Assembly (NCBI GenBank): GCA_026225435.1
Contig: JAMFST010000887.1
Location: 1 to 13,586 of the forward strand
Origin: Labilithrix luteola
GTDB lineage: Bacteria > Myxococcota_A > Polyangia > Polyangiales > Polyangiaceae
Reading direction: 5' to 3'
Length of the DNA: 13,586 nt
Of the stretch, positions 377-13,321 are shown piece by piece. Below the pieces are notes generated by a model. It made no database searches. It had not been told where the DNA came from and worked only from the letters and a program-made list of their open reading frames with translations. The position numbers were made by a program, and so were the translations under genes. The first letter of the stretch is position 1; every line of letters starts with the position of its first letter.

Positions 377-416
377 GAGCGTTCTCCCTTTGGTGTGGAC
401 GAGCACACCTTCCGTG

Positions 417-428
417 ATCGCGCGCGAT
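417..428. repeat. 12-base perfect palindrome ATCGCGCGCGAT
   Basis: A perfect palindrome lies about 87 bases before the MFS start. The position suits an operator for the exporter, but the core is a CG alternation that arises easily in this DNA. No second copy was seen near other starts. Confidence 0.3.
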
Positions 429-514
429 GCGACGCTCCACTTCTTGCTTCCGAACCGGTAGGGCGGCGCCGCGCCCGTCGACACCGCCGGAGAGCTCAGG
501 GCATCCAAGGCCCG

Positions 515-2026
515 ATGAGCACCGCCACGTCGACTCCCATCGCCCCCGCCGAAGCCAGCCTCGATCCACGCCTGCTGCGCACGGCCGCGGTGGTGATCCT
601 CGGCACGTTCATGTCGATCCTGGACACGACCATCGTCAACGTGGCGATGCGGGAGCTGTCGAAGAAGTTCGGCGCGCCGCTGGCGACGACCCAGTGGATC
701 TCGACCGGTTACATGCTCGCGCTCGCCACCGTGATTCCGCTGACCGGGTGGGCAGCCGATCGCTTCGGTACGAAGCGACTGTACATGGGCGCGATCGGCA
801 TGTTCGTTCTCGGCTCGGGGTTGTGTGGCGCGGCGTGGTCGGCCGGTTCGCTCATCGTCTTTCGTGTGCTGCAGGGGCTGGGCGGCGGCATGATCATGCC
901 CGCCGGTATGACGATACTGACGCACGCGGCGGGGCCGAAGCGGATGGGGCGGGTCATGGGCATCGTCGGCGTACCGATGCTCCTCGCGCCCATCGTCGGG
1001 CCGATTCTCGGCGGCTGGCTGGTGGACGACGTGTCCTGGCGCTGGATCTTCTTCGTGAACCTGCCGCTCGGGGTAGTTGCGCTGTTCGCCGCGCAGCGCG
1101 TGTTCGAGCGCGACGAGCCGAAGCCGAACCACTCGCTGGACTGGACCGGGCTGCTGATGCTGTCGCCGGGGCTGGCGATCTTCGTTTACGGACTGGCGCA
1201 AACGGCGGCCGGCGCGGGGCTCGATGCGCTGGGCGGCGGTGGTGCGATTCTGGTCGGACTGGTGCTGGTCATCGCCTTCGTCCTGCACGCGCGCGTCCGC
1301 CCCGGCGCGCTGATCGACGTGAAGACGTTCGCCCGGCGCGCCGTCGGTGCGCCCGCGCTCGTGGTGTTTCTCTTCTGCACGGCTTTCTTCGGAGTCGCGC
1401 TGCTGATGCCGCTCTACTTCCAGCTGGTGCGCGGTGACTCGGCCCTGCACTCCGGCCTGCAGATGTCCGCACAGGGAATTGGCGCCATGCTCTCGATGCC
1501 GATCGCGGCGCGCTTGACGGACAAGATGGGGGCGCGCCGCATCGTCACGTTCGGCCTGTCGCTCGTGACGCTGGGGATGTTGAGCCTCAGTCAGATCTCG
1601 GGCGGCACCACCACGCTGCAGATGGAGCTGACGCTCTTCGTGATGGGGGTGGGCATGGGGTCCACCATGATGCCGGCGATGAGCGCGGCGCTCTCCTCCC
1701 TCGAGCGCCACGCGGTGGCGCGCGTGAGCGCCGGGCTCAACGTGCTGCAGCGGGTCGGCGGCTCGATCGGCACGGCGCTGCTGGCGGTGGTTCTGTCCCA
1801 CGAGCTTGCCGCGGTCGTGCCGGCGTCATCGAGCGCGGCTCTGCACGGCGAAGGGGCGATTGCCGTGGGCGCGGCCGCCGCAGCTCCTGCGCTGGGCGTT
1901 GCCTTCGGCCGCACCTTCACGTGGTCGCTCGCTCTCGTGGTCTTCGCGCTGGTGGCTGCGTTCTTCATCCGTCGCGCCCCGGCCGATGCGACGGGGGCCG
2001 GCGCCGCGGAGCTCATCGTCGACTAG
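515..2026 (+). CDS. MFS drug/small-molecule exporter, DHA2 (EmrB/QacA) family, 14 transmembrane segments
   Basis: This 503-residue inner-membrane proton-driven antiporter shows the classic motifs. These are LDTTIVNVAM in the first membrane helix (residues 36-45), GWAADRFGTKRLY in the loop after helix 2 (78-90), RVLQGLGGG (117-125), and the antiporter motif GPILGGWLV (162-170), followed by WRWIFFVNLPLG. Length and helix pattern fit the 14-helix DHA2 group, which exports hydrophobic drugs, dyes or self-made metabolites. An open frame extends upstream to 395, but the added residues are Arg-rich and not coding-like. The ATG at 515 has AAGG just upstream and gives the normal short cytoplasmic N-terminus (MSTATSTPIAPAEASLDPRL). 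It ends 21 bases from the convergent phosphopantetheinyl transferase gene. Export of the product of the neighbouring acyl-ACP locus is possible but is inferred only from proximity. The substrate is unknown. Confidence 0.93.
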   Translation: MSTATSTPIAPAEASLDPRLLRTAAVVILGTFMSILDTTIVNVAMRELSKKFGAPLATTQWISTGYMLALATVIPLTGWAADRFGTKRLYMGAIGMFVLGSGLCGAAWSAGSLIVFRVLQGLGGGMIMPAGMTILTHAAGPKRMGRVMGIVGVPMLLAPIVGPILGGWLVDDVSWRWIFFVNLPLGVVALFAAQRVFERDEPKPNHSLDWTGLLMLSPGLAIFVYGLAQTAAGAGLDALGGGGAILVGLVLVIAFVLHARVRPGALIDVKTFARRAVGAPALVVFLFCTAFFGVALLMPLYFQLVRGDSALHSGLQMSAQGIGAMLSMPIAARLTDKMGARRIVTFGLSLVTLGMLSLSQISGGTTTLQMELTLFVMGVGMGSTMMPAMSAALSSLERHAVARVSAGLNVLQRVGGSIGTALLAVVLSHELAAVVPASSSAALHGEGAIAVGAAAAAPALGVAFGRTFTWSLALVVFALVAAFFIRRAPADATGAGAAELIVD

Positions 2027-2047: not shown

Positions 2048-2734
2048 TCACCCCACCGGAGCGTAGAGCGTCATCACCGTACCTGGACGAAGCCGCCCGA
2101 AGCGAACGTCGCAAGCACGTCCAGCGCGGTAGCCGTCAGCCAGCGATTCAGTCATGGTCAGCACGATGTGGCCGGACTCCGCGTCGAAGTCCGTCACGCG
2201 CGCGGCCGTGAAGCCGAACCAGCGTCCGACCTCGTCGAACGCCGCCTTGAAGAGGCTCTCCTTCGCGGAGAACGCGATCGTCACTCTCTCGCTGATGGAA
2301 GTCGCGTTGCCCGCTCTCTCGAGGAGCTGCAGCTCTTGCGCGTCCAGCGCGCGCCTCGTGAGCGCGACGCGAGCCTCACTACCGACGACCTCCTCGACAT
2401 CGACGCCGAGTGCCGCGCAGTCCGTCGTGCGCGTCACCGCCGCTACCGCGAGATCGTGGACATGAGAGATGGTGCCGAGAACGCGGCTGGGCCATAGCGG
2501 TTGCCGGGAGTCGCCCATTCCGATGGGAGCGTCTGCCACCGAGTCCCCTAGCTGGCGCAGCGCGTGCTTCGCGGCGAGCCTGCCACACAAGAACTCGACC
2601 TGCCTCTTGTGCGCGCTGCGCGCGATCGACGGTGGACACTCGACCCCCAGGCGATCGAACGACTCGACCCGATAGTCCGACCGCGCGAACGGCAGCGCGA
2701 CTCGACCGGCCCACCACGTTCCCGCGGCTCGCAA
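2048..2734 (-). CDS. 4'-phosphopantetheinyl transferase, EntD/Sfp type
   Basis: Transfers phosphopantetheine from coenzyme A to the conserved Ser of carrier proteins. Visible motifs are FLCGRLAAKHALRQLG (residues 48-63), the substrate-side TISHVHDLAVAA (88-99), the Mg-binding GVDVEE (110-115, Asp112 and Glu114) and FSAKESLFKA (155-164, Glu159 and Lys163). These four in this order define the EntD subgroup, and the 228-residue length fits. The only start that keeps this frame near the expected N-terminus is TTG at 2734-2732, without a clear ribosome-binding site. The upstream hydrolase instead ends in an ATGA overlap whose ATG (2787) lies in another frame, so the true N-terminus is uncertain (see findings). 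Last gene of the operon radical SAM - hydrolase - transferase. It would arm the free ACP (10103-10351) and the ACP domain of the FAAL gene. Confidence 0.9.
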   Translation of the reverse strand: MRAAGTWWAGRVALPFARSDYRVESFDRLGVECPPSIARSAHKRQVEFLCGRLAAKHALRQLGDSVADAPIGMGDSRQPLWPSRVLGTISHVHDLAVAAVTRTTDCAALGVDVEEVVGSEARVALTRRALDAQELQLLERAGNATSISERVTIAFSAKESLFKAAFDEVGRWFGFTAARVTDFDAESGHIVLTMTESLADGYRAGRACDVRFGRLRPGTVMTLYAPVG

Positions 2735-2783
2735 GGCCAGAGCGTAGACAGGTCCAGAACGCGCGCTCCCGCGACGGCCGACG

Positions 2784-3680
2784 TCATCGCGGTGATGCGC
2801 GCTCCGTCAGCCAGCGGGCGATGAGCGGATAGACCTCGTCGCGCGCGCGGCGGCTCGCGATGAGACGAGAGTGCGTGTAGTCCTCGCCGAAGCCGTGCGC
2901 GGTGCCGCACGTCACGAACGTCTTGTCCGCCGAGCCGAGGGCGTGGAACAGCCGCTCGACACCGGACGGCGGCGCGATGAGCGTGTCGCCTGCGCCGGCC
3001 AGCGACAGCGTGGGGAGGGTGATGCCCTTCATCGCCGCCATGTAGTCGAACCCGTCGTGGCCCACCCACTTGCCGCGCCAGCTCCAGCCGAACCACTGAT
3101 GCATGACCCCTTTGAGCTCGTTCTCGGGGCCGACGCGCAGCGCTCTGCCGGGGAACCGTCCGAGCAGCTGGGTGACCACGGCGGCGGTGGCCACCGTGAG
3201 TCGATTCCTCCACGAACGCGCAGCGTCGGTGGTCTGTGAGGCGAGCGTGACGAGGCCGGCGATGTGCTCGGCAGCCTCGGGGGTACGCGCGAGGTGAATG
3301 AGCGGCAACAAGCCGCCGCCGCTGTGACCGACCCAGAAGGCGGCGCTACCCGTCCGCGCACGCACCGCTGCCAGCGCTGCGGGCACGTCGCACTGCGCCA
3401 GTTGCTCGAAGTTCGGCTCGACCTCGGCACGACCGCTCTCGCCGTGCGCTTGCCACTCGAGCACGTAGCAGTCGAACCCTTCGAGAGCGAGCACCTGCGC
3501 CAGCATGTTGCAGACCTGGGCGTTCGACGACGTGCCGTGCGTGACGATGACGGGCACGGGGTGGGTGACGTCTCCCCATACGCGGTGGAGCGCCAGCGTG
3601 AGGCCGCCGGCCGCGGGAATGTCGAGGCGATGACGCTGGAGCGAGTCCAGCGGCACGGCGATGAGACCACGTCCGCCCAC
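2784..3680 (-). CDS. alpha/beta-hydrolase (esterase/thioesterase-like)
   Basis: A 298-residue soluble hydrolase with the nucleophile elbow GHSGGG (Ser120), an oxyanion-side HGTSSN (residues 48-53), a likely acid Asp in AGAGDTLIAP (Asp232), and a catalytic His in GTAHGFGEDYTHS (His262 or His270). HGESG (79-83) precedes the elbow as in many family members. There is no signal peptide, so it is probably cytoplasmic. It starts with GTG at 3680, immediately after the TGA of the radical SAM gene. A second in-frame GTG (codon 9) is possible. Its end overlaps an ATG by the ATGA type. Within an acyl-ACP locus it could release the product from a carrier as a thioesterase, edit mis-loaded carriers, or hydrolyse an ester, but its substrate cannot be read from sequence. 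Confidence 0.88.
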   Translation of the reverse strand: MGGRGLIAVPLDSLQRHRLDIPAAGGLTLALHRVWGDVTHPVPVIVTHGTSSNAQVCNMLAQVLALEGFDCYVLEWQAHGESGRAEVEPNFEQLAQCDVPAALAAVRARTGSAAFWVGHSGGGLLPLIHLARTPEAAEHIAGLVTLASQTTDAARSWRNRLTVATAAVVTQLLGRFPGRALRVGPENELKGVMHQWFGWSWRGKWVGHDGFDYMAAMKGITLPTLSLAGAGDTLIAPPSGVERLFHALGSADKTFVTCGTAHGFGEDYTHSRLIASRRARDEVYPLIARWLTERASPR

Positions 3681-5144
3681 TCACGCCACCGTGGGCAATC
3701 GGCGCGGCGTCACGGGCGCGGGAGGCACGAACATCTCGGCCTGCTGCTTGCGAATGTCGACCACGCGATCCATGGCAATCAGCGTCTGTAACAGCGGCAC
3801 GTAGAAGGGGCCATCCCCGACGAGGCGGATGCCGTGCTCGTCCTGTTCGAGCCAGCCGCGACGCTCGAAGGCTTGCCACACGGTCGCGAATTCATCGTGG
3901 AGCGAGGTGCCGAACAGCGACGCGAACTCGCGGCCGTCGAGCCAGCAAGACTGCATCCGCTGGAAGATCCAGTTGAGCATCAAGTCCGGCAGCTCGTACT
4001 GGTAGGCGCGCTCGATGGGGAAACGCCCGGCATCGAGGTGCGCGTAGTATTCGTCGATGCGGGTGGCGTTCATGATCGCCCAGCCGGGGGAGGACGGCGT
4101 CCCCACGAAGTAGCTGCAGCCCGCAAAACCCCACCCCCACGTCTCGTAGCCGTGGGCACCGCGCTCGGCGTCGGGGGTGAGGAAGCCGCGCATCTGTTCT
4201 TCGTAGACGTAGCGGCCGGCGCCGATCGCCTCTTCCTCCGTCGCCGTCTTGGCCCAGTCGTAGACGGTGTCCTGGTGATACCCCTGCGCCCGCAGGTACT
4301 CGCGCGACGCCTTGTACATCTCGAGGTTCTGCGCCGACGAGGGGAGCGTCGCTGCGTGATTCATCGCGAAGTCGCTCCGGCCCGCGACGTTGAGCTCGTA
4401 GTGCGTGATGTGCTGCACGCCCGCGCCCACGACCTGCCGCAGATCATCGAGCATTCGCTCGACGGTCTGCCCCGGCCACCCGAAGATGAGATCGACGCTG
4501 GTGGCGAGCCCGAGCTCGTTGCAGATATCGAGGTTCTGGAAGACCTGCTTCGCGGTCTGCTTGCGACCACTCAGCTTGATCATGTCGTCCTGCAGCTGCT
4601 GCACGCCCATGCTGATGCGATTGAAGCCAGCAGCCTTCATCCGTTCGAGCTTGGGTCGATTGAACAGCTGGGGGATTCCCTCGAGCGTCACCTCGATGTT
4701 CCCGGGAATCTGGCCGAACACGTCGCGCACGATGTCGAGCAGCTTCGGATACACGTCGGCGCGATACAGGTTGGCCGTGCCGCCGCCGAAGTAGATGCTG
4801 CCGAGCTGCGACTGCGCGAACCAGGACCTGTACATCTCGCCCTCGCGCTGGAGGTATCGCAGGTAGGTCTCCAGCTCCGCCTGCCCGGTGAACACCTCGC
4901 TCGGGAACAGGCAGAACCCGCAGCGATCGGGATCCGTCGGAAGGCAGTAGGGCGTCGCCACGTACAGGCTCACGTGCTTCGGCGCCACCATCTGCGCGCG
5001 CGCGCGCTCCGCCTGGATCTGCGTCATCGGCGGATCGCGGTGGTTCCACAGGAGCGGCGATGGATGGCCGTGCAGCACCTTGTTACTGTGCCGACGACCG
5101 TGCTGGCGCTCGATGTGAGCTTCGACCTCTTCTACGGTGAGCAT
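3681..5144 (-). CDS. HemN/HemW-like radical SAM enzyme with atypical CX7CX2C cluster motif
   Basis: A 487-residue protein of the coproporphyrinogen-oxidase-like (class C methyltransferase type) radical SAM group. Visible are YVATPYCLPTDPDRCGFC (cluster Cys67, Cys75, Cys78), the SAM-binding IYFGGGTANLY (residues 117-127), EVTLEGIPQLFNRPKLERMK (151-170), RISMGVQQLQDDM (176-188) and DLIFGWPGQT (218-227), all diagnostic of the HemN fold. HemN-like proteins carry CX3CX2C, but here the first spacing is seven residues. Known relatives include haem enzymes, C-methylases and cyclopropanases such as those of jawsamycin and CC-1065 biosynthesis. The ATG at 5144 is preferred over GTG at 5150 because GGAG lies five bases before it. 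First gene of the minus-strand operon with the hydrolase and transferase, and divergent from the acyl-CoA dehydrogenase. Its partners argue for modification of an acyl chain or carrier-bound intermediate rather than haem synthesis. Confidence 0.9.
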   Translation of the reverse strand: MLTVEEVEAHIERQHGRRHSNKVLHGHPSPLLWNHRDPPMTQIQAERARAQMVAPKHVSLYVATPYCLPTDPDRCGFCLFPSEVFTGQAELETYLRYLQREGEMYRSWFAQSQLGSIYFGGGTANLYRADVYPKLLDIVRDVFGQIPGNIEVTLEGIPQLFNRPKLERMKAAGFNRISMGVQQLQDDMIKLSGRKQTAKQVFQNLDICNELGLATSVDLIFGWPGQTVERMLDDLRQVVGAGVQHITHYELNVAGRSDFAMNHAATLPSSAQNLEMYKASREYLRAQGYHQDTVYDWAKTATEEEAIGAGRYVYEEQMRGFLTPDAERGAHGYETWGWGFAGCSYFVGTPSSPGWAIMNATRIDEYYAHLDAGRFPIERAYQYELPDLMLNWIFQRMQSCWLDGREFASLFGTSLHDEFATVWQAFERRGWLEQDEHGIRLVGDGPFYVPLLQTLIAMDRVVDIRKQQAEMFVPPAPVTPRRLPTVA

Positions 5145-5186
5145 GACCACTCCATGAATCGTTGAAGACGATAAAGTGAAAAGCCG
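5145..5186. promoter_or_regulatory. 42-base divergent promoter region with small inverted repeat
   Basis: This gap must drive both the radical SAM operon (minus) and the dehydrogenase (plus). It is A-rich relative to its surroundings (GATAAAGTGAAAAG). It contains ATCGT-TGAAG-ACGAT at 5158-5172, a five-base inverted repeat suited to a dimeric regulator. The radical SAM ribosome site GGAG lies at 5153-5150. The dehydrogenase has no clear one. Overlap of both start regions suggests shared control, or that part of the promoter lies inside the coding sequences. Confidence 0.4.
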
Positions 5187-6902
5187 ATGTCGATCCCCGC
5201 GCAGTACGCGAGCACCGAGGAACTAGAGAGCTTTCTGGGCAGCCCCTTCGCGCCCGGACCCTTCGCCTTCGAGAGCGCGATGGCGTTCGACGAGCGCGAG
5301 CAGCTCCCCGAGGAAGCGCTTCGCCTCCTCGACGATTGGGGGCTGCATCGGTTCTACGTGCCCGCCGCGCTCGGCGGTCGCCTCACCTCGTTCGAGGAGC
5401 TCGCGTCGCTGACCCGCGCGGTCTCTCGACGAGACCTCACCTTGAGCATCGCGCACTCGAAGACGATGCTCGGCGCGGTCATGACGTGGGTGGGTGGCAG
5501 CCGCGCGCTGCAGGAGCGCATGGCCGGGCTCATCGGCGGGCGTCACGCCATCGCGCTCGCTTTGACCGAGCGCGCTCACGGGAGCGACCTCATGGCCACG
5601 TCCACCGCGGCCACGAAGACGGCGGATGGCTACTCGCTGACCGGCGAGAAGTGGCTCATCAACAACGCGACGCGCAGCCGCGCGGTGACGGTGCTCGCGC
5701 GCACCGACGAGCGCGTCGGCCCGCGCTCGTTGACCCTCTTCGTGATCGACAAGGACTCGCTGGCCGAGGGGGCCTTCGAGCCGCTCCCCAAGGTGCGCAC
5801 GCTCGGCATTCGCGGCGCGGACATCAGCGGGCTGGTGCTGCGCGACGCCATCACCGGCGGCGATTCCGTCGTCGGTGCGCCGGGCCTCGGGCTCGAGCTC
5901 GTGCTCAAGGGGCTGTTCGTCACGCGCACCCTCACCGCCAACCTGTCGGTCGGCGCCGGAGACACGGCGTTGCGCGTGACGCTCGACTTCGCACGCGCGC
6001 GAGCGCTGTACCGAGGCACGGTGTTCGATCTGCCGAACGTTCGTACGGCGCTCGTGAACGGCTTCGTGTCGCTGCTCGTGGGCGAGTGCGCGTCCATCTG
6101 CGGGAGCCGCGCCATTCACTTCGTCCCCGAGGAGCTCGGCATCGTCTCGGCGGTGGCGAAGCATTTCATCCCCACGTCGATGGAGGCGCTGCTGCAGCGA
6201 CTCGCGGTCGTCCTCGGCGCGCGCCACTACCTGCGCGAGGGGCACGCGTCCGGCATCTTCCAGAAGATGCTCCGCGACAACGCCTTGACGAGCCTCTTCG
6301 ACGGCAGCACCGCGGTGAACCTGTCCGGCATCGGCCTGCAGCTCCGCGAGCTGCTGCGGCAGCGAAGGAGCACGACGGCGCTCGCCCTGTTCGACGTTCA
6401 TGCGCAGCCGCCCCCGTTCGCGCTCGAGCGGATCGAGCCCATCAGTCGTGGGAACGACACGATCCTGTCGACGGGCGCCACGATCGCGGCGCGCCTCGCG
6501 GAGAGCGGGCCCGAGCTCCTCGGGGACTGCGCGCGCCGCCTGGTGGCGCTCCTCGCGGAGCTGGAGCGCGAGGTCGAAGCGCTGACGAGCGGTTCGCGAC
6601 GACAGCTGCTCGAGTCACCGAGGATGTTCGCGCTCGCGGAGATGTATTGCCGCCTCCACGTCGCCGCCGCCTGTCTCGGCTTCTGGGAAGCAAACCGAGC
6701 ACGCGGGGACGAGTTTCTGCGCGATGGCGACTGGCTGGTGCTCGCGCTCGCACAGCTGCTCCTGCTCGAGATGGACGACGTACGCTTCGAAGCCGTCGTC
6801 GAGCGCGTCGCCGGCCGCTTGATCGACCTGCACGAGCGCGACGCGCTGTTCTCGCTGCTCCCGCTCCAGTGCGTGACGAGGCTGTCGCGCGGGTACGTGT
6901 GA
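5187..6902 (+). CDS. acyl-CoA (or acyl-ACP) dehydrogenase-like flavoprotein
   Basis: A 571-residue FAD protein of the acyl-CoA dehydrogenase superfamily, which forms an alpha,beta double bond in an acyl thioester. The N-terminal helical domain carries FYVPAALGGRLTSFEELA (residues 56-73). The flavin motif LTERAHGSDL (126-135) matches the family LTEPxxGSD, and LTGEKWLINNA (151-161) matches KxWITNA. The C-terminal helical domain has LFDGSTAVNLSGIGLQL (370-386), where the usual catalytic Glu of xxYEGT is Asp372. A further helical stretch of about 180 residues follows, longer than the usual 380-residue enzyme. The ATG at 5187 is the first in frame, with a weak ribosome site. It diverges from the radical SAM operon and converges on the FAAL gene. 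Given neighbours that make and use acyl-ACP, an ACP-bound substrate is a reasonable inference, as for other dehydrogenases of natural-product loci. Confidence 0.88.
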   Translation: MSIPAQYASTEELESFLGSPFAPGPFAFESAMAFDEREQLPEEALRLLDDWGLHRFYVPAALGGRLTSFEELASLTRAVSRRDLTLSIAHSKTMLGAVMTWVGGSRALQERMAGLIGGRHAIALALTERAHGSDLMATSTAATKTADGYSLTGEKWLINNATRSRAVTVLARTDERVGPRSLTLFVIDKDSLAEGAFEPLPKVRTLGIRGADISGLVLRDAITGGDSVVGAPGLGLELVLKGLFVTRTLTANLSVGAGDTALRVTLDFARARALYRGTVFDLPNVRTALVNGFVSLLVGECASICGSRAIHFVPEELGIVSAVAKHFIPTSMEALLQRLAVVLGARHYLREGHASGIFQKMLRDNALTSLFDGSTAVNLSGIGLQLRELLRQRRSTTALALFDVHAQPPPFALERIEPISRGNDTILSTGATIAARLAESGPELLGDCARRLVALLAELEREVEALTSGSRRQLLESPRMFALAEMYCRLHVAAACLGFWEANRARGDEFLRDGDWLVLALAQLLLLEMDDVRFEAVVERVAGRLIDLHERDALFSLLPLQCVTRLSRGYV

Positions 6903-6922
6903 CGAGGGCACATCAGCCCTCG
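6903..6922. terminator. perfect hairpin spanning the convergent ends of dehydrogenase and FAAL genes
   Basis: CGAGGGC and GCCCTCG form seven perfect pairs around a six-base loop ACATCA. The stem starts right after the dehydrogenase stop and covers the last codons and stop of the FAAL gene. No T-run follows on either strand. As the only structure in a 10-base convergent gap it could serve as a two-way terminator or protect both 3' ends. Confidence 0.5.
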
Positions 6923-8859
6923 AAGAGCGGCACGAGCTCACCACGTTCGAGCTTGGTGCGGCAGGCGCGACGTTGCACCTTCCCCGACGTGGTCTTGAGG
7001 ACCTCACCCGGACGCACGAGCAGGATCCGTCCGAGACGAAAGCCGAACTCGCGCGAGACGGCCGCGCGCAGGCCGGCGACGATCGCGCTGCCCCCTGCGG
7101 CCTCCTCGGGCGTGCGCAGCTCGGCCATCAGGCAGACCTCTTCGCGATCGTCCGCGTGGGTGGTGGTGAAGGCCGCGAGACACGAGGAGCGCAGCGCGGG
7201 CGTCACGCCTTCGCACAGAGCCTCGACGTCGTTCGGGTAGACGTTCCGCCCGTCGATGATGATGAGATCCTTGAGGCGGCTGCGAACGTAGACCTGGCCG
7301 TCGGTGAGGCTTCCGAGGTCGCCGGTGCGCAGCCACGTGCCGTCGAGCCCCTTGGCGCGCGCGGCGAACGTCGCGTCGCTGTCCTGGTTCCAGTACCCGC
7401 GGGCGACGCTCGGCCCCTGGAACCAGATCTCCCCGACCTCGCCGGGACCGCAGGGCACGAGGCGCTCGGGGTCGACGATCGCGACGCGGTGCCCTGGCAG
7501 CACTTCGCCACACGAGACGTGGCCATCGTGGGTGATCGGCTTGGCGGCGTGCTGCGGCACGCTGACCATCAGGGTCGCCTCGGCGAGCCCGTACGAGGGA
7601 CGGAGCGCGTCGACGCGAAAGCCGCACGGAGCGAACGCATCGGCGAAGCGGAGGAGCGTCGCTTCACGCACCGGCTCGGAGGCGTTGTAGACGCGGCGGA
7701 ACGTGCTCAGGTCCAGCGCGGTTCTCTGCTCGGCCGGGATGCGACGCACGCACAGGTCGAAGGCGAAGTTCGGCGCGCCGCTGGTGTGCGCCTTGTAGCG
7801 CGAGATGGCCTGGAGCCAGCGGAGCGGCCGCTGGATGAACGCGCCGGGCGGCATCAAGTAGCAGACGCCACCGCAGTACACCGCCGGCAGGCTGTGACCG
7901 ATGAGGCCCATGTCGTGGTACTGCGGCGCCCAGTTCACCAGCCGCAACCGGTCGCCCGGCGCGACGATCGGCGCATGATTCGTCGTCGCCATCCCGTGCA
8001 GGTTGGCGAGCAGACAGCCGTGTGTCACCACGACGCCCTTCGGCGAGCCCGTCGACCCGGACGTGTATTGCAAGAACGCGACGGTCGACTCGTTCGCCGC
8101 GAAGGGGACGAAGGACGCGACGTCGTCGCCCGACAGGCGCGGACCCGCGCGCATCGTGTCGGTGTCGATCCACGCCAGCGCGTCGAGAGAGTCGGCCGCC
8201 GATAGCCGCTCACGAGCCGCGAGCTGCTCCTTGGCGGTGGTGAGCACGAGCGCCGCATCGCAGTCCTTCACGACGGCCCGAAGACGGGTCAGCGAGCGAT
8301 CGACGGTCATCGGCACCGCGTAGATGCCGGCGTAGAGGCACGCGAAGAAGGCGACCATGAAGTCGAGGCCCGCCGGATAGAGCAGGAGCGCACGAGCACC
8401 CGGTGCGTACTCGGCGCTCAGCGATCGCGCGAGCTCGCGCGCGAGGCGATCGAGCTCCGCGTACGTGAGGTGGTCCGTCTCCGTCTCCCCGTCTTCGAGG
8501 AAGACGAAGGCGAGCTCGTCGCCGATGGTGCGGCTCCGCAGGCGAAGAACCTCGCCCAGGTCCTGCACCGAACGATGAGGGAGCTCCATGGTGGACCCCT
8601 TCGGCGCGGACACGGTGGCCAGGTACGCGGAGAGCGAGCGCAGCGTCGGGTAATCCCAGCCCAGCGTGGGAGGAAGGTCGACGTTCAACACCTCCTCGAG
8701 CTCGCTCGAGAGCGTCATCAGCTCGCGCGACGAGAGCCCCAGATCGACCAGCATCGTGTCCGGCTGGACTTCAGCGACGGTGATGCGCAGCTCGCGCGCG
8801 ACCCAGTCGGCGAGCCAGAGCGAGATTGCCTTCGAGTCGCCTTGCAGCTTGTCAGTCAT
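6913..8859 (-). CDS. ACP-FAAL fusion: fatty acyl-AMP ligase with N-terminal acyl carrier domain
   Basis: A 648-residue two-domain protein. Residues about 10-85 are an acyl carrier domain with DLGLSSRELMTLSSELEEVL, where Ser44 takes the phosphopantetheine. Residues about 95-648 are an ANL-family adenylating enzyme with YTSGSTGSPKGV (265-276), NWAPQYHDMGLIGHSL (309-324), RPSYGLAEATLMVS (420-433), GEIWFQGPSVARGYW (476-490), LRTGDLG (510-516), IIDGRNVYPNDVE (534-546) and the C-terminal Lys627 in KTTSGK. The WxPxYHDMGLIG and YGLAEATLMVS signatures are those of FAALs, which make acyl-AMP and pass the acyl group to a carrier instead of CoA. A longer frame runs upstream to 9522 but lies antisense-shifted inside the ketosynthase. 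The ATG at 8859 overlaps the ketosynthase stop (ATGA), giving translational coupling. FAALs are more often followed by a carrier domain than preceded by one. Likely the loading step of the locus. Confidence 0.93.
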   Translation of the reverse strand: MTDKLQGDSKAISLWLADWVARELRITVAEVQPDTMLVDLGLSSRELMTLSSELEEVLNVDLPPTLGWDYPTLRSLSAYLATVSAPKGSTMELPHRSVQDLGEVLRLRSRTIGDELAFVFLEDGETETDHLTYAELDRLARELARSLSAEYAPGARALLLYPAGLDFMVAFFACLYAGIYAVPMTVDRSLTRLRAVVKDCDAALVLTTAKEQLAARERLSAADSLDALAWIDTDTMRAGPRLSGDDVASFVPFAANESTVAFLQYTSGSTGSPKGVVVTHGCLLANLHGMATTNHAPIVAPGDRLRLVNWAPQYHDMGLIGHSLPAVYCGGVCYLMPPGAFIQRPLRWLQAISRYKAHTSGAPNFAFDLCVRRIPAEQRTALDLSTFRRVYNASEPVREATLLRFADAFAPCGFRVDALRPSYGLAEATLMVSVPQHAAKPITHDGHVSCGEVLPGHRVAIVDPERLVPCGPGEVGEIWFQGPSVARGYWNQDSDATFAARAKGLDGTWLRTGDLGSLTDGQVYVRSRLKDLIIIDGRNVYPNDVEALCEGVTPALRSSCLAAFTTTHADDREEVCLMAELRTPEEAAGGSAIVAGLRAAVSREFGFRLGRILLVRPGEVLKTTSGKVQRRACRTKLERGELVPLFEG

Positions 8860-10106
8860 AGCGTCGCGTCCATTTTCGAGAAAACGAGGGAGGTGTTGGT
8901 GCCGCCGAAGCCGAACGAGTTCGACAGTGCGACCGGCACGTCTTGCGTACGTGCGGCGCCCATCACGAAGTCGAGATCGCACCCCTTGCCCGGCTGCACG
9001 AGGTTCGCGGTGGGGTGGAGGCGGCCGTCGCGGATGCTGAGCGCAGTGACCGCGGCCTCGACGGCGCCAGCGGCTCCGCCGAGGTGGCCGATCATGGACT
9101 TGCTCGCGCTCACCGGTACCGCGTCGGCGTGGGTGCCGAACACGGAGCGAATGGCGCGCACTTCGTTGATGTCGCCCAGTGCGGTGCTGGTGGCGTGCGC
9201 GTTGACGTAGCGCACCGCCGAAGGCTCGATCTGCGCGTCGTCGATGGCCATGCGCATGGCACGCTCGGGCCCGTCCTGGGTGGGCTGGGTGACGTGGAAC
9301 GCGTCGTTGGAGACACCGAAGCCGAGCACCTCGCAGTAGATCGTGGCGCCGCGTTGCAACGCATGCGTGCGCTCCTCGAGGACGAGGACACCCGCACCTT
9401 CTCCCATCACGAACCCCGCGCGATCCACGTCCCACGGGCGCGAGGCGCTCTCCGGCGCGTCGTTGTTCACCGACAGCGCCTTGACCGCGTTGAAGGCGGC
9501 GATGCACACCCGGTTGACCCACGCTTCGCTGCCGCCGGCCACCATGAGCGTGGCGGTGCCGTGCTGGATCGCGCGCGCCGACTCACCGATGGCGTGCGCG
9601 CCCGAAGCGCACGCGCTGTTGGCCGTGTAGTTCAGGCCGCGAAGACCGAGGCGAATGGCCACTTGCGAGGACGCCAGGCTCGTCGCTGCCATCAGCAACG
9701 TGTAGGGCGAGAGCGCGCCGTGAACCGACAGCTCGGTGAATGCGGTCTCGAGCGCGTCCATGCCGCCCATCGAGATGCCGAGCACGCACCCCGCGCGGTC
9801 GGCGACGCCTGGACTCAAGGTCCCGAGCTTCGCGTCCTGCCACGCCAGCACGCTCGCGCCGATGGCGAGCTCGATGACGCGGCTCATCTCCCGACGCTTC
9901 CGTGGCTCGACGAACGCGTCCGCGTCCCAGTCCTTGATCTCGCCGGCGAAGCGAGTGAGGAGTCCCGCGGTGTCGAAGCGACGAATCGGTGCGATCCCTC
10001 CGCGCCCCTCGAGTAGCGAGCGCCAGGTGACCTCCGTGCCGATACCCACCGGCGTGATGAGCCCGATGCCCGTGACGACGACGCGGTGACCGGCGCCGGC
10101 CTTCAC
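8856..10106 (-). CDS. beta-ketoacyl-ACP synthase, FabF (KAS II) type
   Basis: This 416-residue thiolase-fold condensing enzyme joins an acyl chain to a malonyl-ACP-type extender. It opens with RVVVTGIGLITPVGIG. The nucleophile Cys166 lies in NSACASGAHAIGES, His304 in VNAHATSTALGD, and Lys336 and His341 in SKSMIGHLGGAAGAVE, so the Cys-His-His triad is complete. GFGGTNTSLVF is the usual C-terminal glycine loop. Length and motifs match discrete FabF proteins rather than modular polyketide synthase domains. The GTG at 10106 overlaps the TGA of the ACP gene (GTGA), and the gene ends in an ATGA overlap with the FAAL. An open frame continues upstream to 10484 but passes out of phase through the ACP gene, so it is not used. 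The ACP - KS - FAAL order and tight coupling point to a dedicated elongation unit instead of housekeeping fatty acid synthesis. Confidence 0.95.
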   Translation of the reverse strand: MKAGAGHRVVVTGIGLITPVGIGTEVTWRSLLEGRGGIAPIRRFDTAGLLTRFAGEIKDWDADAFVEPRKRREMSRVIELAIGASVLAWQDAKLGTLSPGVADRAGCVLGISMGGMDALETAFTELSVHGALSPYTLLMAATSLASSQVAIRLGLRGLNYTANSACASGAHAIGESARAIQHGTATLMVAGGSEAWVNRVCIAAFNAVKALSVNNDAPESASRPWDVDRAGFVMGEGAGVLVLEERTHALQRGATIYCEVLGFGVSNDAFHVTQPTQDGPERAMRMAIDDAQIEPSAVRYVNAHATSTALGDINEVRAIRSVFGTHADAVPVSASKSMIGHLGGAAGAVEAAVTALSIRDGRLHPTANLVQPGKGCDLDFVMGAARTQDVPVALSNSFGFGGTNTSLVFSKMDATL

Positions 10107-10351
10107 CGCGCCGCCGCTTGAAGGCCGCGCTCGTCGATGTACCGCACCACGTCTTCGACGCGCTGGAGGTCGCGCAGGGCTTCGTCGGGGATCGAGACCT
10201 TGAAGAGCCGCTCGAACTTGATCACCAGCTCGGTGAGAGCGAGCGAGTCGGCGCCCAGGTCTTGCACCAGGCTCGAACGCGGCTGAATCGACGCGGGGTC
10301 GACGCGGAGATCGGCGGCGATGATCGCCTGTATCTGCGAAAAGGTAGTCAT
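10103..10351 (-). CDS. acyl carrier protein (discrete)
   Basis: An 82-residue carrier protein, MTTFSQIQAIIAADLRVDPA at the start, with the phosphopantetheine site DLGADSLALTEL (Ser36) and the acidic helix II-III pattern of type II carriers. It carries growing or modified acyl chains as thioesters in the cytoplasm. A GTG seven codons upstream is in frame, but the ATG at 10351 has GAGG seven bases before it and gives the normal length. It overlaps the ketosynthase start and is the first gene of the ACP - KS - FAAL operon. The C-terminus ends in Ala-Ala-Ala-Arg, so it looks complete. It is a natural partner of the ketosynthase, the FAAL, the dehydrogenase and the transferase in this window. Housekeeping AcpP function is less likely given the neighbours. 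Confidence 0.95.
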   Translation of the reverse strand: MTTFSQIQAIIAADLRVDPASIQPRSSLVQDLGADSLALTELVIKFERLFKVSIPDEALRDLQRVEDVVRYIDERGLQAAAR

Positions 10352-10555
10352 GGGATCGCCTCGTTCCTGCACGAGCAGGGCAGCACGTGCTGATGCCGGG
10401 CTTGGACGCAGGCGCGGGCGATTCCTTGCAGACCTCCTCCCACTTTTTCGTACCGTCGGCGCACGTCACCTTCTCTGAGGCCACGACGCGGTGCAGCGCT
10501 CGGATGCTGCGCAGCGTCGCGGCCGGGGCGGATCTGGTAGGAGGAGCGGCTGCAA
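10352..10555. promoter_or_regulatory. divergent region between ACP operon and deacetylase gene
   Basis: This 204-base gap between divergent starts must hold both promoters. It contains the ACP ribosome site (GAGG, 10359-10362), the 12-base palindrome CAGCACGTGCTG (10381-10392) and the deacetylase ribosome site (AGGAGGAG, 10539-10546). A minus-strand Cys-rich open frame is described under findings. No clear -35/-10 pair was identified. Confidence 0.5.
10381..10392. repeat. 12-base perfect palindrome CAGCACGTGCTG
   Basis: Located 30 bases upstream of the ACP start in the divergent promoter region. It includes an E-box-like CACGTG core. Its position fits an operator for the ACP operon. There is no second copy in the window to support this. 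Confidence 0.35.
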
Positions 10556-11509
10556 ATGACGGCAGCGCGTTCGTGGATGTTCGCGGCAGCGGCGCTCTGC
10601 GCGCTCGTCGCGCAAGGGTGCATCGGCCGACCTGCCCCCGTTGGTGGCGGTCGAGAGGACCCGATCGAGGTCGCGCTGACCTTCGACGATCTTCCGAGCA
10701 ACGGTCCGCTCGTTCCGGGGGAGACGCGGCGGTCCATCATGGGAAAGATCCTCGCGACCTTGCGCAGGCACGGCATCTCGTCGGTGACGGGCTTCGCGAA
10801 CGGGCGACGTGTCGAGGAGCATCCCGAGGACGTCGCGGCGCTCACGGACTGGCTGGCGGCAGGACACCTGCTCGGCGACCACACGTATTCACACGCCGAT
10901 ATCAACGCGATTGGCCTCCAGGCTTATCTGGCCGACATCGACAAGAATCATGCATTCTTGAACAAGGTCGACCCCACCGACGCCGGGAGATTCTTTCGCT
11001 ACCCCTACCTGGAGGAGGGGCCCGATCTCGCGTCTCGTCACGCGATCCAGCAGCACCTGGCGTCCCTCGGATACCAGGCAACCGACGTCACGATCGATTT
11101 CTACGATTGGGCTTACGCAGAGCCGTACGCCCGCTGTCTCGCGCAGCACGATGGGGTGGCGATCGCGGCGCTGAAGACGTCGTACATCCAGAACGCCGAC
11201 ACGTTTCTCAACTGGTCAGTCGCGGCCGGGCGGCAGATCTATGGGCGATCCGTCCCCCAGATTTTGCTCCTGCACGTCAGTGCCATCGGCGCTGAGATGC
11301 TCGATCAGCTCCTGACCGATTACGCGCAGCGCGGCGTCGTCTACATCACGCTCGACCGCGCGCTACGGGACGCCATCTACCATCAGCCGGTGGACGTCGC
11401 CCCGACGCGCGGAGATACGCTGTACGAGAAGATGATCGAGGCGCGGCACGTCCCCTATCCTCCATTCCCGCTGCAACCCGATTCCCTTCTCAGCGTGATT
11501 TGCGACTGA
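10556..11509 (+). CDS. secreted polysaccharide deacetylase-like (NodB domain) protein
   Basis: A 317-residue carbohydrate esterase family 4-type protein. It removes acetyl groups from surface or wall glycans in characterised relatives. NodB motifs are all visible: LTFDDLPSNG (motif 1, Asp44 and metal Asp45), DHTYSHAD (motif 2, His109 and His113), FFRYPYLEEG (motif 3, Arg148), DFYDWAY (motif 4) and ILLLHVS (motif 5, His240). The N-terminus MTAARSWMFAAAALCALVAQGC is an export signal ending in a Cys at position 22. AQGC is only a loose lipobox, so a lipoprotein is possible but cleavage as a normal signal peptide cannot be excluded. The ATG at 10556 follows AGGAGGAG by about nine bases. It diverges from the ACP operon and lies 64 bases before the HxlR operator region. 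It has no obvious role in acyl-ACP chemistry and may be an unrelated insertion. Confidence 0.9.
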   Translation: MTAARSWMFAAAALCALVAQGCIGRPAPVGGGREDPIEVALTFDDLPSNGPLVPGETRRSIMGKILATLRRHGISSVTGFANGRRVEEHPEDVAALTDWLAAGHLLGDHTYSHADINAIGLQAYLADIDKNHAFLNKVDPTDAGRFFRYPYLEEGPDLASRHAIQQHLASLGYQATDVTIDFYDWAYAEPYARCLAQHDGVAIAALKTSYIQNADTFLNWSVAAGRQIYGRSVPQILLLHVSAIGAEMLDQLLTDYAQRGVVYITLDRALRDAIYHQPVDVAPTRGDTLYEKMIEARHVPYPPFPLQPDSLLSVICD

Positions 11510-11532
11510 ACGCGTCCTTGGAGGTGCCCGGG

Positions 11533-11560
11533 TTGACGTTACTATCGAAACGATAGTAAC
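11533..11560 (+). promoter_or_regulatory. putative HxlR operator overlapping a promoter
   Basis: A perfect inverted repeat with ten-base arms GTTACTATCG (11538-11547) and CGATAGTAAC (11551-11560) around AAA lies 13 bases before the regulator start. A -35-like TTGACG overlaps its left end (11533-11538), and a weak -10-like TAACAG follows at 11557. Arms of the TTACTAT/ATAGTAA kind in front of an HxlR gene are typical of autoregulated MarR/HxlR-type dimer sites. The block is conspicuously AT-rich against its surroundings. Binding by this protein is inferred. Confidence 0.75.
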
Positions 11561-11573
11561 AGCGAGGCTCACC

Positions 11574-12080
11574 ATGACTCTTTCCCCCTTCGCGACCCCA
11601 GAATGCCCCATCGGTCGAGCGCTCTCCCAGGTCGGCGATGCGTGGACCATGCTGATCTTGCGCGAGGCGCTGAAGGGCTGCCGGACGTTCGCGGGGTTCG
11701 AAGCGGCCCTCGGGGTCGCTCCCAGCACGCTCACGCGGCGGCTCGAGCAGCTGTGCGTCGACGGGCTCCTGGTGCGCTGTCGTTACCAGGAGCGGCCACC
11801 GCGCGATGACTACGAGCTGACGGAGAAGGGGCTCGAGCTGCTGCCCGTCCTCCTCGCGCTCGGGAGCTGGGGGAACCGCTGGCTCGCGCCGGACGGTGAG
11901 CTGATGGTTCCGGTGGATGCGGAGACGGGGGAGCCGCTCGACACCGTCGTCACCAATCGCCGCACCGGGAAGCCCGTCGGTCGGCGGAGGGTCGCGCTGG
12001 CCGCGGGGCGTGGGGCCAGCGATCAGCTGCGTCGAGCGCTGGCGACGCCGCTTCGTCTCGGCCCGGGGGCTCGGTCGTGA
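11574..12080 (+). CDS. HxlR-family winged-helix transcriptional regulator
   Basis: A 168-residue DNA-binding protein. Residues 11-104 form the HxlR winged helix: CPIGRALSQVGDAWTMLILR, then a recognition helix region GVAPSTLTRRLEQLCVDGLL (47-66) and the wing YQERPPRDDYELTEKGLELL (71-90), ending WGNRWL. Cys11 is the conserved N-terminal cysteine that senses oxidants or electrophiles in several relatives. A tail of about 60 residues (105-168) after the domain is longer than in the shortest members and becomes Arg/Ala-rich. The ATG at 11574 has GAGG six bases upstream. The perfect operator-like repeat just before it suggests autoregulation. Its last codons overlap the GTG of the downstream ketosynthase (GTGA), so the two are co-translated. 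HxlR genes usually sit beside reductases or transporters, so coupling to a condensing enzyme is unusual. Confidence 0.93.
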   Translation: MTLSPFATPECPIGRALSQVGDAWTMLILREALKGCRTFAGFEAALGVAPSTLTRRLEQLCVDGLLVRCRYQERPPRDDYELTEKGLELLPVLLALGSWGNRWLAPDGELMVPVDAETGEPLDTVVTNRRTGKPVGRRRVALAAGRGASDQLRRALATPLRLGPGARS

Positions 12081-13321
12081 ACCGCGCGCGCGTCGTGGTG
12101 ACCGGCATGGGGTGCGTGACGCCGGTCGGGAACGACATGGCGAGCACGTGGGCCGCGTTGATCGAGGGCAGGAGCGGCGCCGCCGGGATCACGCTGTTCG
12201 ATTCGGCGGCCTTCGCCGTTCGCTTCGCCTGCGAGGTGAAGGGGTACGACGCCGGCCTCTTCGTGGAGAAGAAGAGACGCAAGGAGATGGATCGCTTCAC
12301 CGAGTTCGCGATGGGCGCGGCCTCGATGGCCGTCACGGACGCGGGCCTGGTGCTGACGCAACAGGAAGAGACGCGCGCGGGGTGCTTCGTGGGCGTCGGT
12401 CTCGGCGGCCTCACCGCGCTGGAAAACGCCAAGGCAACGCTGGATGCCAAGGGGCCGTCGAAGCTGAGCCCGTACACGATCCCGCGGATCATCGCGAACA
12501 TCGCCGCCGGGCACATCTCGATCACCCATCGGCTCCGCGGGCCGAGCTATGCCATCACGAGCGCCTGCGCCACGGGAGCGCACGCCATCGGGGAGGCGGC
12601 CGAGTGGATCCGCCGCGGGCGCGCCGACGTGATGCTCGCGGGTGGGGCCGAGTCGACCATCACGCCCATCGCCATCGGCGGCTTCCAGGCGATGCACGCT
12701 CTCTCGCGACGAAACGACGCGCCCGAGCGCGCGAGCCGGCCGTTCGATCTCGGGCGCGATGGGTTCGTCTGTGGCGAAGGGGCCGGCGTGCTGGTGCTCG
12801 AATCCTACGAGCGAGCGACCAAGCGTGGCGCTCGTATCTACGCGGAGCTCACGGGCTACGGCGCGTCGAGCGACGCGTACCACCTCACGAGCCCGCCACC
12901 CGAAGGCGAAGGCTGCGAGCGGTCCATGAGCATGGCGCTGGACGACGCTCAGCTCTCTCCGGATTCGATCGACTACCTGAACGCGCACGCGACTTCGACC
13001 GACCTTGGTGACCGAGCCGAGACGGAGGGGATCGTCCACGGGTTCGGCGCGCACGCTACCGATCGCCGGCTGGCCGTCAGCTCCACGAAGAGCATGACCG
13101 GCCACCTGCTCGGGGCCGCCGGCGCGGTGGAAGCCATCTTCACCGCGCTCGCCGTCCATCATGGGGTCCTTCCGCCGACCATCAACGTCGACGAGCAGGA
13201 CCCGCGCTGCCCGCTGGACGTCGTGCCGAACATCGCGCGTCAGCGGCAGGTCCGGCATGCCCTCTCGAACGCCTTCGGGTTCGGCGGCACGAACGCGTCG
13301 CTCGTCTTCTCGCGAGTCTGA
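12077..13321 (+). CDS. second beta-ketoacyl-ACP synthase, FabF (KAS II) type
   Basis: A 414-residue FabF-like enzyme beginning RVVVTGMGCVTPVGNDMAST. The catalytic Cys164 lies in TSACATGAHAIGEA, His304 in LNAHATSTDLGD, and Lys338 and His343 in STKSMTGHLLGAAGAVE. GFGGTNASLVF closes the protein, so all active-site residues are present. It is a paralogue of the ketosynthase at 8856-10106, with the same spacing (His at 304 in both) and similar blocks such as the KxRRKEMDRFTEFAMGAA region. The GTG at 12077 overlaps the stop of the HxlR gene, which fixes the start and indicates translational coupling. Its sequence is closer than the first copy to the common FabF consensus (CATG, KSMTGHLLG), so it may be the more conventional condensing enzyme. 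It could work with the ACP of this locus or be a regulated supplementary KAS II. Its end is 20 bases from the convergent glutaryl-CoA dehydrogenase gene. Confidence 0.95.
   Translation: MNRARVVVTGMGCVTPVGNDMASTWAALIEGRSGAAGITLFDSAAFAVRFACEVKGYDAGLFVEKKRRKEMDRFTEFAMGAASMAVTDAGLVLTQQEETRAGCFVGVGLGGLTALENAKATLDAKGPSKLSPYTIPRIIANIAAGHISITHRLRGPSYAITSACATGAHAIGEAAEWIRRGRADVMLAGGAESTITPIAIGGFQAMHALSRRNDAPERASRPFDLGRDGFVCGEGAGVLVLESYERATKRGARIYAELTGYGASSDAYHLTSPPPEGEGCERSMSMALDDAQLSPDSIDYLNAHATSTDLGDRAETEGIVHGFGAHATDRRLAVSSTKSMTGHLLGAAGAVEAIFTALAVHHGVLPPTINVDEQDPRCPLDVVPNIARQRQVRHALSNAFGFGGTNASLVFSRV

Follow-up and report, generated by a model that had tools for sequence, protein, structure and literature searches.

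A candidate acyl-ACP biosynthetic locus of Labilithrix luteola combining a putative fatty acyl-AMP ligase, an acyl-CoA-dehydrogenase-like enzyme and a HemN-like radical SAM enzyme

Gene content and organization

The window, i.e. the whole stretch of DNA analysed here, is the entire contig C168 (13,586 bp) and is open at both ends, so that genes past either end are out of view. The initial annotation had listed a fatty acyl-AMP ligase (FAAL), an acyl carrier protein (ACP), two FabF ketosynthases, a dehydrogenase, a radical SAM enzyme, a hydrolase and a phosphopantetheinyl transferase (PPTase). This inventory was borne out, since all these genes were full-length ORFs with clear profile matches. 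The Pfam scan covered 10 proteins; for ketosynthase KS2 and the truncated ORF at the end, only NCBIfam was used.

Three minus-strand genes, coding for the free ACP (10103..10372; PF00550, DSL motif), the FabF-type ketosynthase KS1 (8856..10106; TIGR03150, 499.5 bits for a cut-off of 493.75) and ACP-FAAL, an N-terminal carrier domain joined to a predicted fatty acyl-AMP ligase (6913..8859; PF00550 and PF00501), follow one another with a 4-bp overlap between ACP and KS1 and another between KS1 and ACP-FAAL. An ATG at 10351 is a possible alternative ACP start. An acyl-CoA-dehydrogenase-like enzyme of 571 aa (ACAD; 5187..6902, plus strand) and the HemN-like radical SAM enzyme (rSAM; 3681..5150, minus strand) are encoded divergently, with starts about 40 bp apart; translation of rSAM may in fact begin at the ATG at 5144. 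The gene of an alpha/beta hydrolase (2784..3680, minus strand; PF12146/PF00561) begins on the base right after the rSAM stop, and its product displays GHSGG, with Asp and His candidates downstream. About 50 bp further, on the same strand, lies the gene of an Sfp/EntD-type PPTase (2048..2734; PF17837 and PF01648), which reached 100.6 bits against the EntD model, below the cut-off of 169. It is convergent with the gene of a DHA2-family MFS efflux pump (395..2026, plus strand; PF07690; TIGR00711, 383 bits for a cut-off of 230).

On the other side, the plus strand carries a polysaccharide deacetylase gene (10556..11509; PF01522), an HxlR-family regulator gene (11574..12080; PF01638) and, overlapping the latter by 4 bp, the gene of the second FabF-type ketosynthase, KS2 (12077..13321; TIGR03150, 598 bits, NCBIfam). 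The deacetylase and the regulator lie within the span of the initial annotation but were absent from its title. Both ketosynthases kept the Cys-His-His residues. Among 14 fabF matches in the genome, four exceeded the cut-off, two of which are KS1 and KS2. KS1 matched its nearest FabF compared at 52%, and KS2 two other FabFs of its own genome at 67%. KS2 is thus a housekeeping-like paralogue whose link to the pathway is uncertain, and this closeness speaks against the core role first given to it. KS2, the regulator and the deacetylase probably do not belong to the core, and the deacetylase probably stands outside the pathway.

The radical SAM enzyme and its family

The rSAM displayed a Cx7CxxC motif (C69, C77 and C80) that was conserved in all 28 aligned sequences, and these three are the predicted cluster-binding cysteines. 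The same motif is reported for the jawsamycin and fuelimycin cyclopropanases and corresponds to C68, C76 and C79 in Jaw5 (PMC13389473). In two trees, rSAM fell into the Jaw5/Pfl2 family branch with a support of 100, apart from other HemN-like enzymes, and grouped with P0002 with supports of 99 to 100. The first tree comprised 44 of the 85 rSAM loci besides the window, together with 10 proteins and HemW; the second was built without the HemW, L070, L071, L072, L074, L080 and L082 rows. The window rSAM matched its S. albireticuli and S. longispororuber relatives at 40-42%. Across 45 rSAM rows (L070 left out of this count), 18 of them PKS-linked, 69 residues were invariant. Judged by its sequence, rSAM is a member of the Jaw5/Pfl2 cyclopropanase family.

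Conservation extended to the SAM pocket. In NocN, the residues contacting its two SAMs are Y34, Y96, R153, R171, D196 and S225 (PMC12871812). An alignment read by hand placed the first five on identical residues of rSAM (Y63, Y120, R178, R196 and D220) and the sixth on T249, a Ser-to-Thr change; NocN was not among the 50 rows of the VIA-align comparison. These six positions were unchanged across all 45 rSAM rows counted.

An ordinary HemN or HemW was ruled out, since heme-family models stayed below cut-off (TIGR00539, 142 bits for 205; TIGR00538, 119 bits for 325), the cysteine spacing is Cx7CxxC instead of CxxxCxxC, and the genome holds a separate HemN-like gene, L002, with CxxxCxxC, presumably HemW. 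The S. albireticuli relative scored like the window rSAM against the heme-family models.

The window rSAM branched outside the PKS-linked clade, and the deep branching order had no firm support in the second tree; another reaction is therefore possible. Class C radical SAM enzymes methylate, lactonise or cyclopropanate via the same methylene radical (PMC12871812), and rSAM might carry out other class C chemistry, e.g. C-methylation, yielding an unsaturated acyl chain that is methylated or modified in some other way. We consider this improbable, given the Cx7CxxC motif and the 69 invariant residues common to the window and the PKS-linked rows.

Searches recovered only the window itself in its own family (108 genomes) and in its own class (317 genomes, query P0002). 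Six matches were recorded among 377 genomes of the phylum, five of them at 33-34%, and four among 52 genomes of the class of G118, at 34-35%. A P0122 search run without a positive control gave no match in 95 genomes of the phylum of the Rokubacteria genome. Most rSAM relatives had neighbourhoods devoid of lipid genes among the proteins scanned. At locus L028, a FAAL-KS-DH-KR-ACP protein and a KS-AT-KR-ACP-C protein flank the rSAM relative, a placement that fits rSAM acting on enoyl-ACP, and the Rokubacteria contig L022 carries rSAM, KS and ACP in series. Ketosynthase matches and size, not Pfam, were the basis for calling the neighbours of PKS-linked rSAMs, of about 1,330 aa, iterative PKSs (iPKSs).

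Linkage of the dehydrogenase, the FAAL and the hydrolase

In ACAD, PF02770 and PF00441 exceeded their cut-offs and PF02771 remained just below. Position 246, adjoining R247, is Thr or Ser. An aspartate, D372, occupied the usual base position in 26 of 26 sequences, the catalytic Glu being absent there, which leaves both the activity of ACAD and the site of desaturation unsure. As for ACP-FAAL, FAAL models outscored CoA-ligase models, all of them below their own cut-offs, and its carrier part displays an LSS motif. In all six loci found, from five further genomes of the class, a FAAL lay within 10 kb of the ACAD relative. These genomes hold 1 to 14 FAALs, and the chance of such proximity was roughly estimated at 1e-10, one near-copy being dropped.

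Among the matches listed, the nearest relatives of rSAM (63%), ACAD (62%) and FAAL (57%) each lay on an NCBI contig of 295,670 bp. The identical size indicates that the set is very probably present in a second genome as well, and by eye no other contig size recurred among the rSAM, ACAD and FAAL matches listed. Together with the FAAL-ACAD proximity, this upholds the proposal that the genes of the locus are associated beyond this genome. The scattering named beforehand as a possible refutation was true of rSAM alone, most relatives of which occur elsewhere. The rSAM-ACAD pair was seen in two genomes only, and at E 1e-40 ACAD was missing from 39 of the 40 rSAM-bearing genomes tested.

A hydrolase relative was fused to, or directly 3' of, rSAM in 23 of the 80 loci examined; among the 120 protein relatives listed, 23 carried the fusion, which occurs in Methylomirabilota. 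The window might hold two independent neighbours, namely a FAAL-ACAD-ACP-KS1 lipid pathway of known type and a separate rSAM-hydrolase unit. The 23 rSAM-hydrolase loci indeed had no FAAL or ACAD match in stretches of 3.6 to 21 kb, and the six ACAD-FAAL loci of other genomes of the class were all without rSAM. Yet, the three nearest relatives share the 295,670-bp contig size, rSAM and ACAD are divergent at short distance, and the PPTase gene follows that of the hydrolase; we regard such a partition as improbable.

A putative route to cyclopropane fatty acids and its precedents

The gene set supports the proposal that this acyl-ACP locus is fed by a FAAL, includes a radical SAM enzyme and differs from the usual polyketide or fatty acid synthase cluster. 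The lack of ketoreductase (KR), dehydratase (DH) and acyltransferase (AT) was confirmed in the 10 Pfam-scanned proteins, a statement that holds for the contig only. The reading that we favour, tentatively and at somewhat short of even confidence, is that a ready-made fatty acid is converted by the locus, with no polyketide synthase, into a fatty acid or acyl-ACP building block bearing a cyclopropane. From the gene content we infer the following reactions, bond position and product. The PPTase would arm the carrier domains, and ACP-FAAL would convert a free fatty acid into acyl-AMP and pass it to its own carrier or to the free ACP. ACAD would introduce a double bond close to the thioester while the chain is on ACP (at C2=C3, or at C3=C4, the position predicted for TamT), a single step replacing the ketosynthase, ketoreductase and dehydratase of polycyclopropane polyketide pathways. 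Using one SAM, rSAM would form the 5'-deoxyadenosyl radical and, on a second SAM, a methylene radical; CH2 would be added across the double bond and the cyclopropane closed. Release from ACP would fall to the hydrolase. Either before or after these steps, KS1 may lengthen the chain, the reductase and dehydratase being borrowed from the fatty acid synthase of the cell.

KS1 is hard to place in the simplest form of this scheme and counts against it, as do the rarity of the rSAM-ACAD pair, the absence of rSAM from the other genomes of the class searched, its position outside the PKS-linked clade, the Asp at the ACAD base position and the lack of lipid genes among the scanned neighbours of most rSAM relatives. 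An alternative is a short type II polyketide-like pathway, where a FAAL-loaded starter is extended by KS1, perhaps also KS2, with malonyl-ACP, the host reductase and dehydratase provide 2-enoyl-ACP, and rSAM cyclopropanates every round as in jawsamycin, giving multiple rings; ACAD would tailor the starter or the end product only. KS1 has a complete active site and is translationally coupled to ACP and ACP-FAAL, an rSAM-KS-ACP series exists on one Rokubacteria contig, and PKS-linked rSAM relatives work with chain extension (PMC13389473). This pathway seems nevertheless unlikely, as the scanned proteins of the contig include no KR, DH or AT, and ACAD is hard to place in it although ACAD and FAAL co-occur with the nearest rSAM relative among the matches listed.

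The closest known systems for rSAM are those of jawsamycin (Jaw4-6), fuelimycin (Pfl1-4) and S. longispororuber (Log1-4), whose radical SAM enzymes are of one family with it and share Cx7CxxC and many invariant residues. Their iterative PKS pathways also act on carrier-bound substrates, as proposed here. Yet, they encode an iPKS and a KR with the cyclopropanase, whereas the open-ended window contig has FAAL and ACAD and neither of these. Pfl and Log, like the window, have a separate releasing enzyme, an alpha/beta hydrolase in the window versus the hotdog thioesterase described for Pfl4.

For the other half of the locus, MbtL-MbtM-MbtN of mycobactin form a trio of ACP, FAAL and acyl-ACP dehydrogenase. 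The window follows a similar logic, but its proteins match these models weakly (ACAD, 19.9 bits against MbtN, cut-off 700; ACP-FAAL, 228 bits against MbtM, cut-off 621). By context, the window also resembles tambjamine TamA-TamT-TamH, where an adenylation-ACP fusion loads a fatty acid that an ACAD-like enzyme desaturates on the carrier (PMC5939613). The ACAD relatives L121 and L122 adjoin a FAAL and an aminotransferase-reductase, PigE-like for L121. TamA differs in carrying its ACP at the C-terminus, versus the N-terminal carrier of ACP-FAAL, and the Pfam scan revealed no TamH-like transaminase-reductase gene in the window.

Two parallels drawn by the initial annotation were dropped, partner domains being missing and the motif different. 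JamABC of jamaicamide likewise combines FAAL, ACP and an oxidising enzyme (PMC11837247), but none of the 10 scanned proteins had a fatty-acid desaturase domain (PF00487), and the ACAD context is nearer to TamA/TamT. In CC-1065 biosynthesis, the HemN-like radical SAM enzyme of the C10P/C10Q system takes the methylene that it adds from a second SAM (PMC6050322), but with CxxxCxxC and a methyltransferase partner, a domain absent from the 10 scanned proteins. The HemN-like assignment of the initial annotation is narrowed here to the Jaw5/Pfl2 cyclopropanase family.

This radical SAM family is known from polyketide pathways making polycyclopropane antibiotics, and in the open-licence literature examined its cyclopropanases are described only within iterative PKS pathways (PMC13389473). 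No description of a FAAL-ACAD-rSAM cyclopropanation locus was found in open-licence PMC literature. It is conceivable, though we say so with reserve, that a polyketide-free route (FAAL loading, Asp-type ACAD desaturation, Jaw5-family cyclopropanation and hydrolase release) leads to fatty acids with a 2,3- or 3,4-methylene group. The PKS-linked enzymes would then be one branch of a far wider family of radical acyl cyclopropanases. This family would span Acidobacteriota, Methylomirabilota, Granulosicoccaceae and others, mostly without a dedicated polyketide synthase, so that a large portion of it would be uncharacterised. Engineering of PKS-pathway cyclopropanases for fuels is under way, and there the number of rings and the chain length are difficult to control (PMC13389473). 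The route would place a ring on any free fatty acid, uncoupling cyclopropanation from PKS programming, and would offer a simple in vitro system for the cyclopropanase mechanism. The MFS efflux pump, of uncertain membership in the cluster, is a possible exporter of the product.

Gene content and predicted route

The window is the complete contig C168 (13,586 bp) of a fragmented source genome (6.8 Mb, 80% complete), and the neighbourhood view ends at both of its ends. All genes named in the initial annotation, which had proposed an acyl-ACP biosynthetic locus, were borne out by ORF listing and profile scans. A DHA2 MFS pump gene on the plus strand is followed by PPTase, alpha/beta hydrolase and HemN-like radical SAM (rSAM) genes on the minus strand, the acyl-CoA-dehydrogenase-like ACAD on the plus strand (5187-6902), the carrier-ligase fusion ACP-FAAL, the FabF ketosynthase KS1 and ACP on the minus strand, and polysaccharide deacetylase, HxlR and a second FabF, KS2, on the plus strand. 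The contig breaks off within the last gene, a second acyl-CoA dehydrogenase of which only the C-terminal end is present. ACP and KS1 overlap by 4 bp, as do KS1 and ACP-FAAL, and the rSAM stop is followed on the very next base by the hydrolase start.

In the route tentatively favoured here, a fatty acid would be loaded by the fatty acyl-AMP ligase (FAAL), the ACP-bound chain would undergo flavin desaturation, a radical cyclopropanation would follow and hydrolysis would end the sequence. This scheme would stand in for the KS-KR-DH round that gives the double bond in polycyclopropane pathways. KS1, translationally coupled to ACP and ACP-FAAL, is probably used in the pathway and perhaps elongates the chain before or after ring formation. 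KS2 matched two other FabFs of the same genome at 67% and may be an unrelated paralogue. No pathway combining FAAL, ACAD and rSAM cyclopropanation was found in searches of the openly licensed PMC literature; the cyclopropanase is of a known type, and the proposed fatty-acid-fed setting is new.

Linkage of ACAD and FAAL

Among the matches listed, the top relatives of rSAM (63%), ACAD (62%) and FAAL (57%) were all located on NCBI contigs of 295,670 bp, a common length for which they were taken as one contig; the runners-up among these matches reached 57%, 46% and 43%, respectively. A search of 308 other genomes from the class of the window gave ACAD relatives (E 1e-80) in 5 of them, and a FAAL lay within 10 kb in each of their six loci (6/6). 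These genomes encode merely 1 to 14 FAALs each (E 1e-50), and a rough estimate, with the near-copy genome G431 left out, places the chance of such proximity at about 1e-10. The ACAD subfamily is further marked by an Asp at the base-Glu position of a solved relative (26/26 sequences).

Two loci from large-genome relatives in the family of the window (L121 and L122) each combine FAAL and ACAD genes with one for an aminotransferase-reductase (about 1,000 aa), a gene set resembling the tambjamine fatty amine cassette. Published work on that cassette (PMC5939613, PMC6667630, PMC9594044) assigns fatty acid loading to TamA and amine formation to TamH, with TamT as the predicted C3-C4 desaturase. The L121 aminotransferase-reductase is nearest to PigE, as is also reported for TamH.

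Distribution and partners of rSAM

Several findings count against the favoured route. Co-occurrence of rSAM and ACAD was seen in two genomes only. ACAD was not found (E 1e-40) in 39 of 40 rSAM-bearing genomes tested, and the lone match reached 33%. No rSAM copy was detected in the rest of the window's class among the genomes searched, and the phylum sample held distant forms only. Most of ten neighbour proteins scanned from other lineages were without link to lipid synthesis.

Of 80 loci, 23 have a relative of the window hydrolase either fused to rSAM or immediately following it: six from Methylomirabilota (fused ORF), one from Rokubacteria (L070, rSAM frame broken) and 16 from Granulosicoccaceae or a near relative. 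Hydrolase domains were likewise carried by 23 of the best 120 rSAM protein relatives listed. Such fusion and adjacency argue for a joint function, for which product release would be the simplest option.

Cyclopropanase-family rSAMs from Vicinamibacteria and other Acidobacteriota, Granulosicoccaceae and Methylomirabilota (L003-L043, L060, L065, L068-L070) had no PKS match nearby in nearly all cases, ketosynthases being present in L022 and L028; in many of them a fused or adjacent hydrolase was the sole companion. L022, a Rokubacteria contig, displays the order rSAM-KS-ACP. L028 (2862-17319) is an acidobacterial FAAL-PKS-NRPS assembly line whose rSAM is encoded between the first two proteins (FAAL-KS-DH-KR-ACP and KS-AT-KR-ACP-C), an arrangement that fits rSAM acting on an enoyl-ACP.

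A distant group of nine relatives (L072-L074, L077-L082), seven of them from planctomycetes, displays Cx6CxxC. Families of the window's phylum other than its own hold a separate Cx7CxxC group (L083-L087, about 34% identity); the fetched stretches of these loci gave no match to the remaining window proteins. PKS-linked cyclopropanase loci were also recorded in MAGs titled Planctomycetota, Rhodobacter, Anaerolineae, Labilibaculum and Acidobacteria (L047, L048, L052, L053 and L067), outside the actinomycetes known for polycyclopropanes; in the Rhodobacter MAG (L048), two rSAM genes of the cyclopropanase family adjoin one PKS-like gene.
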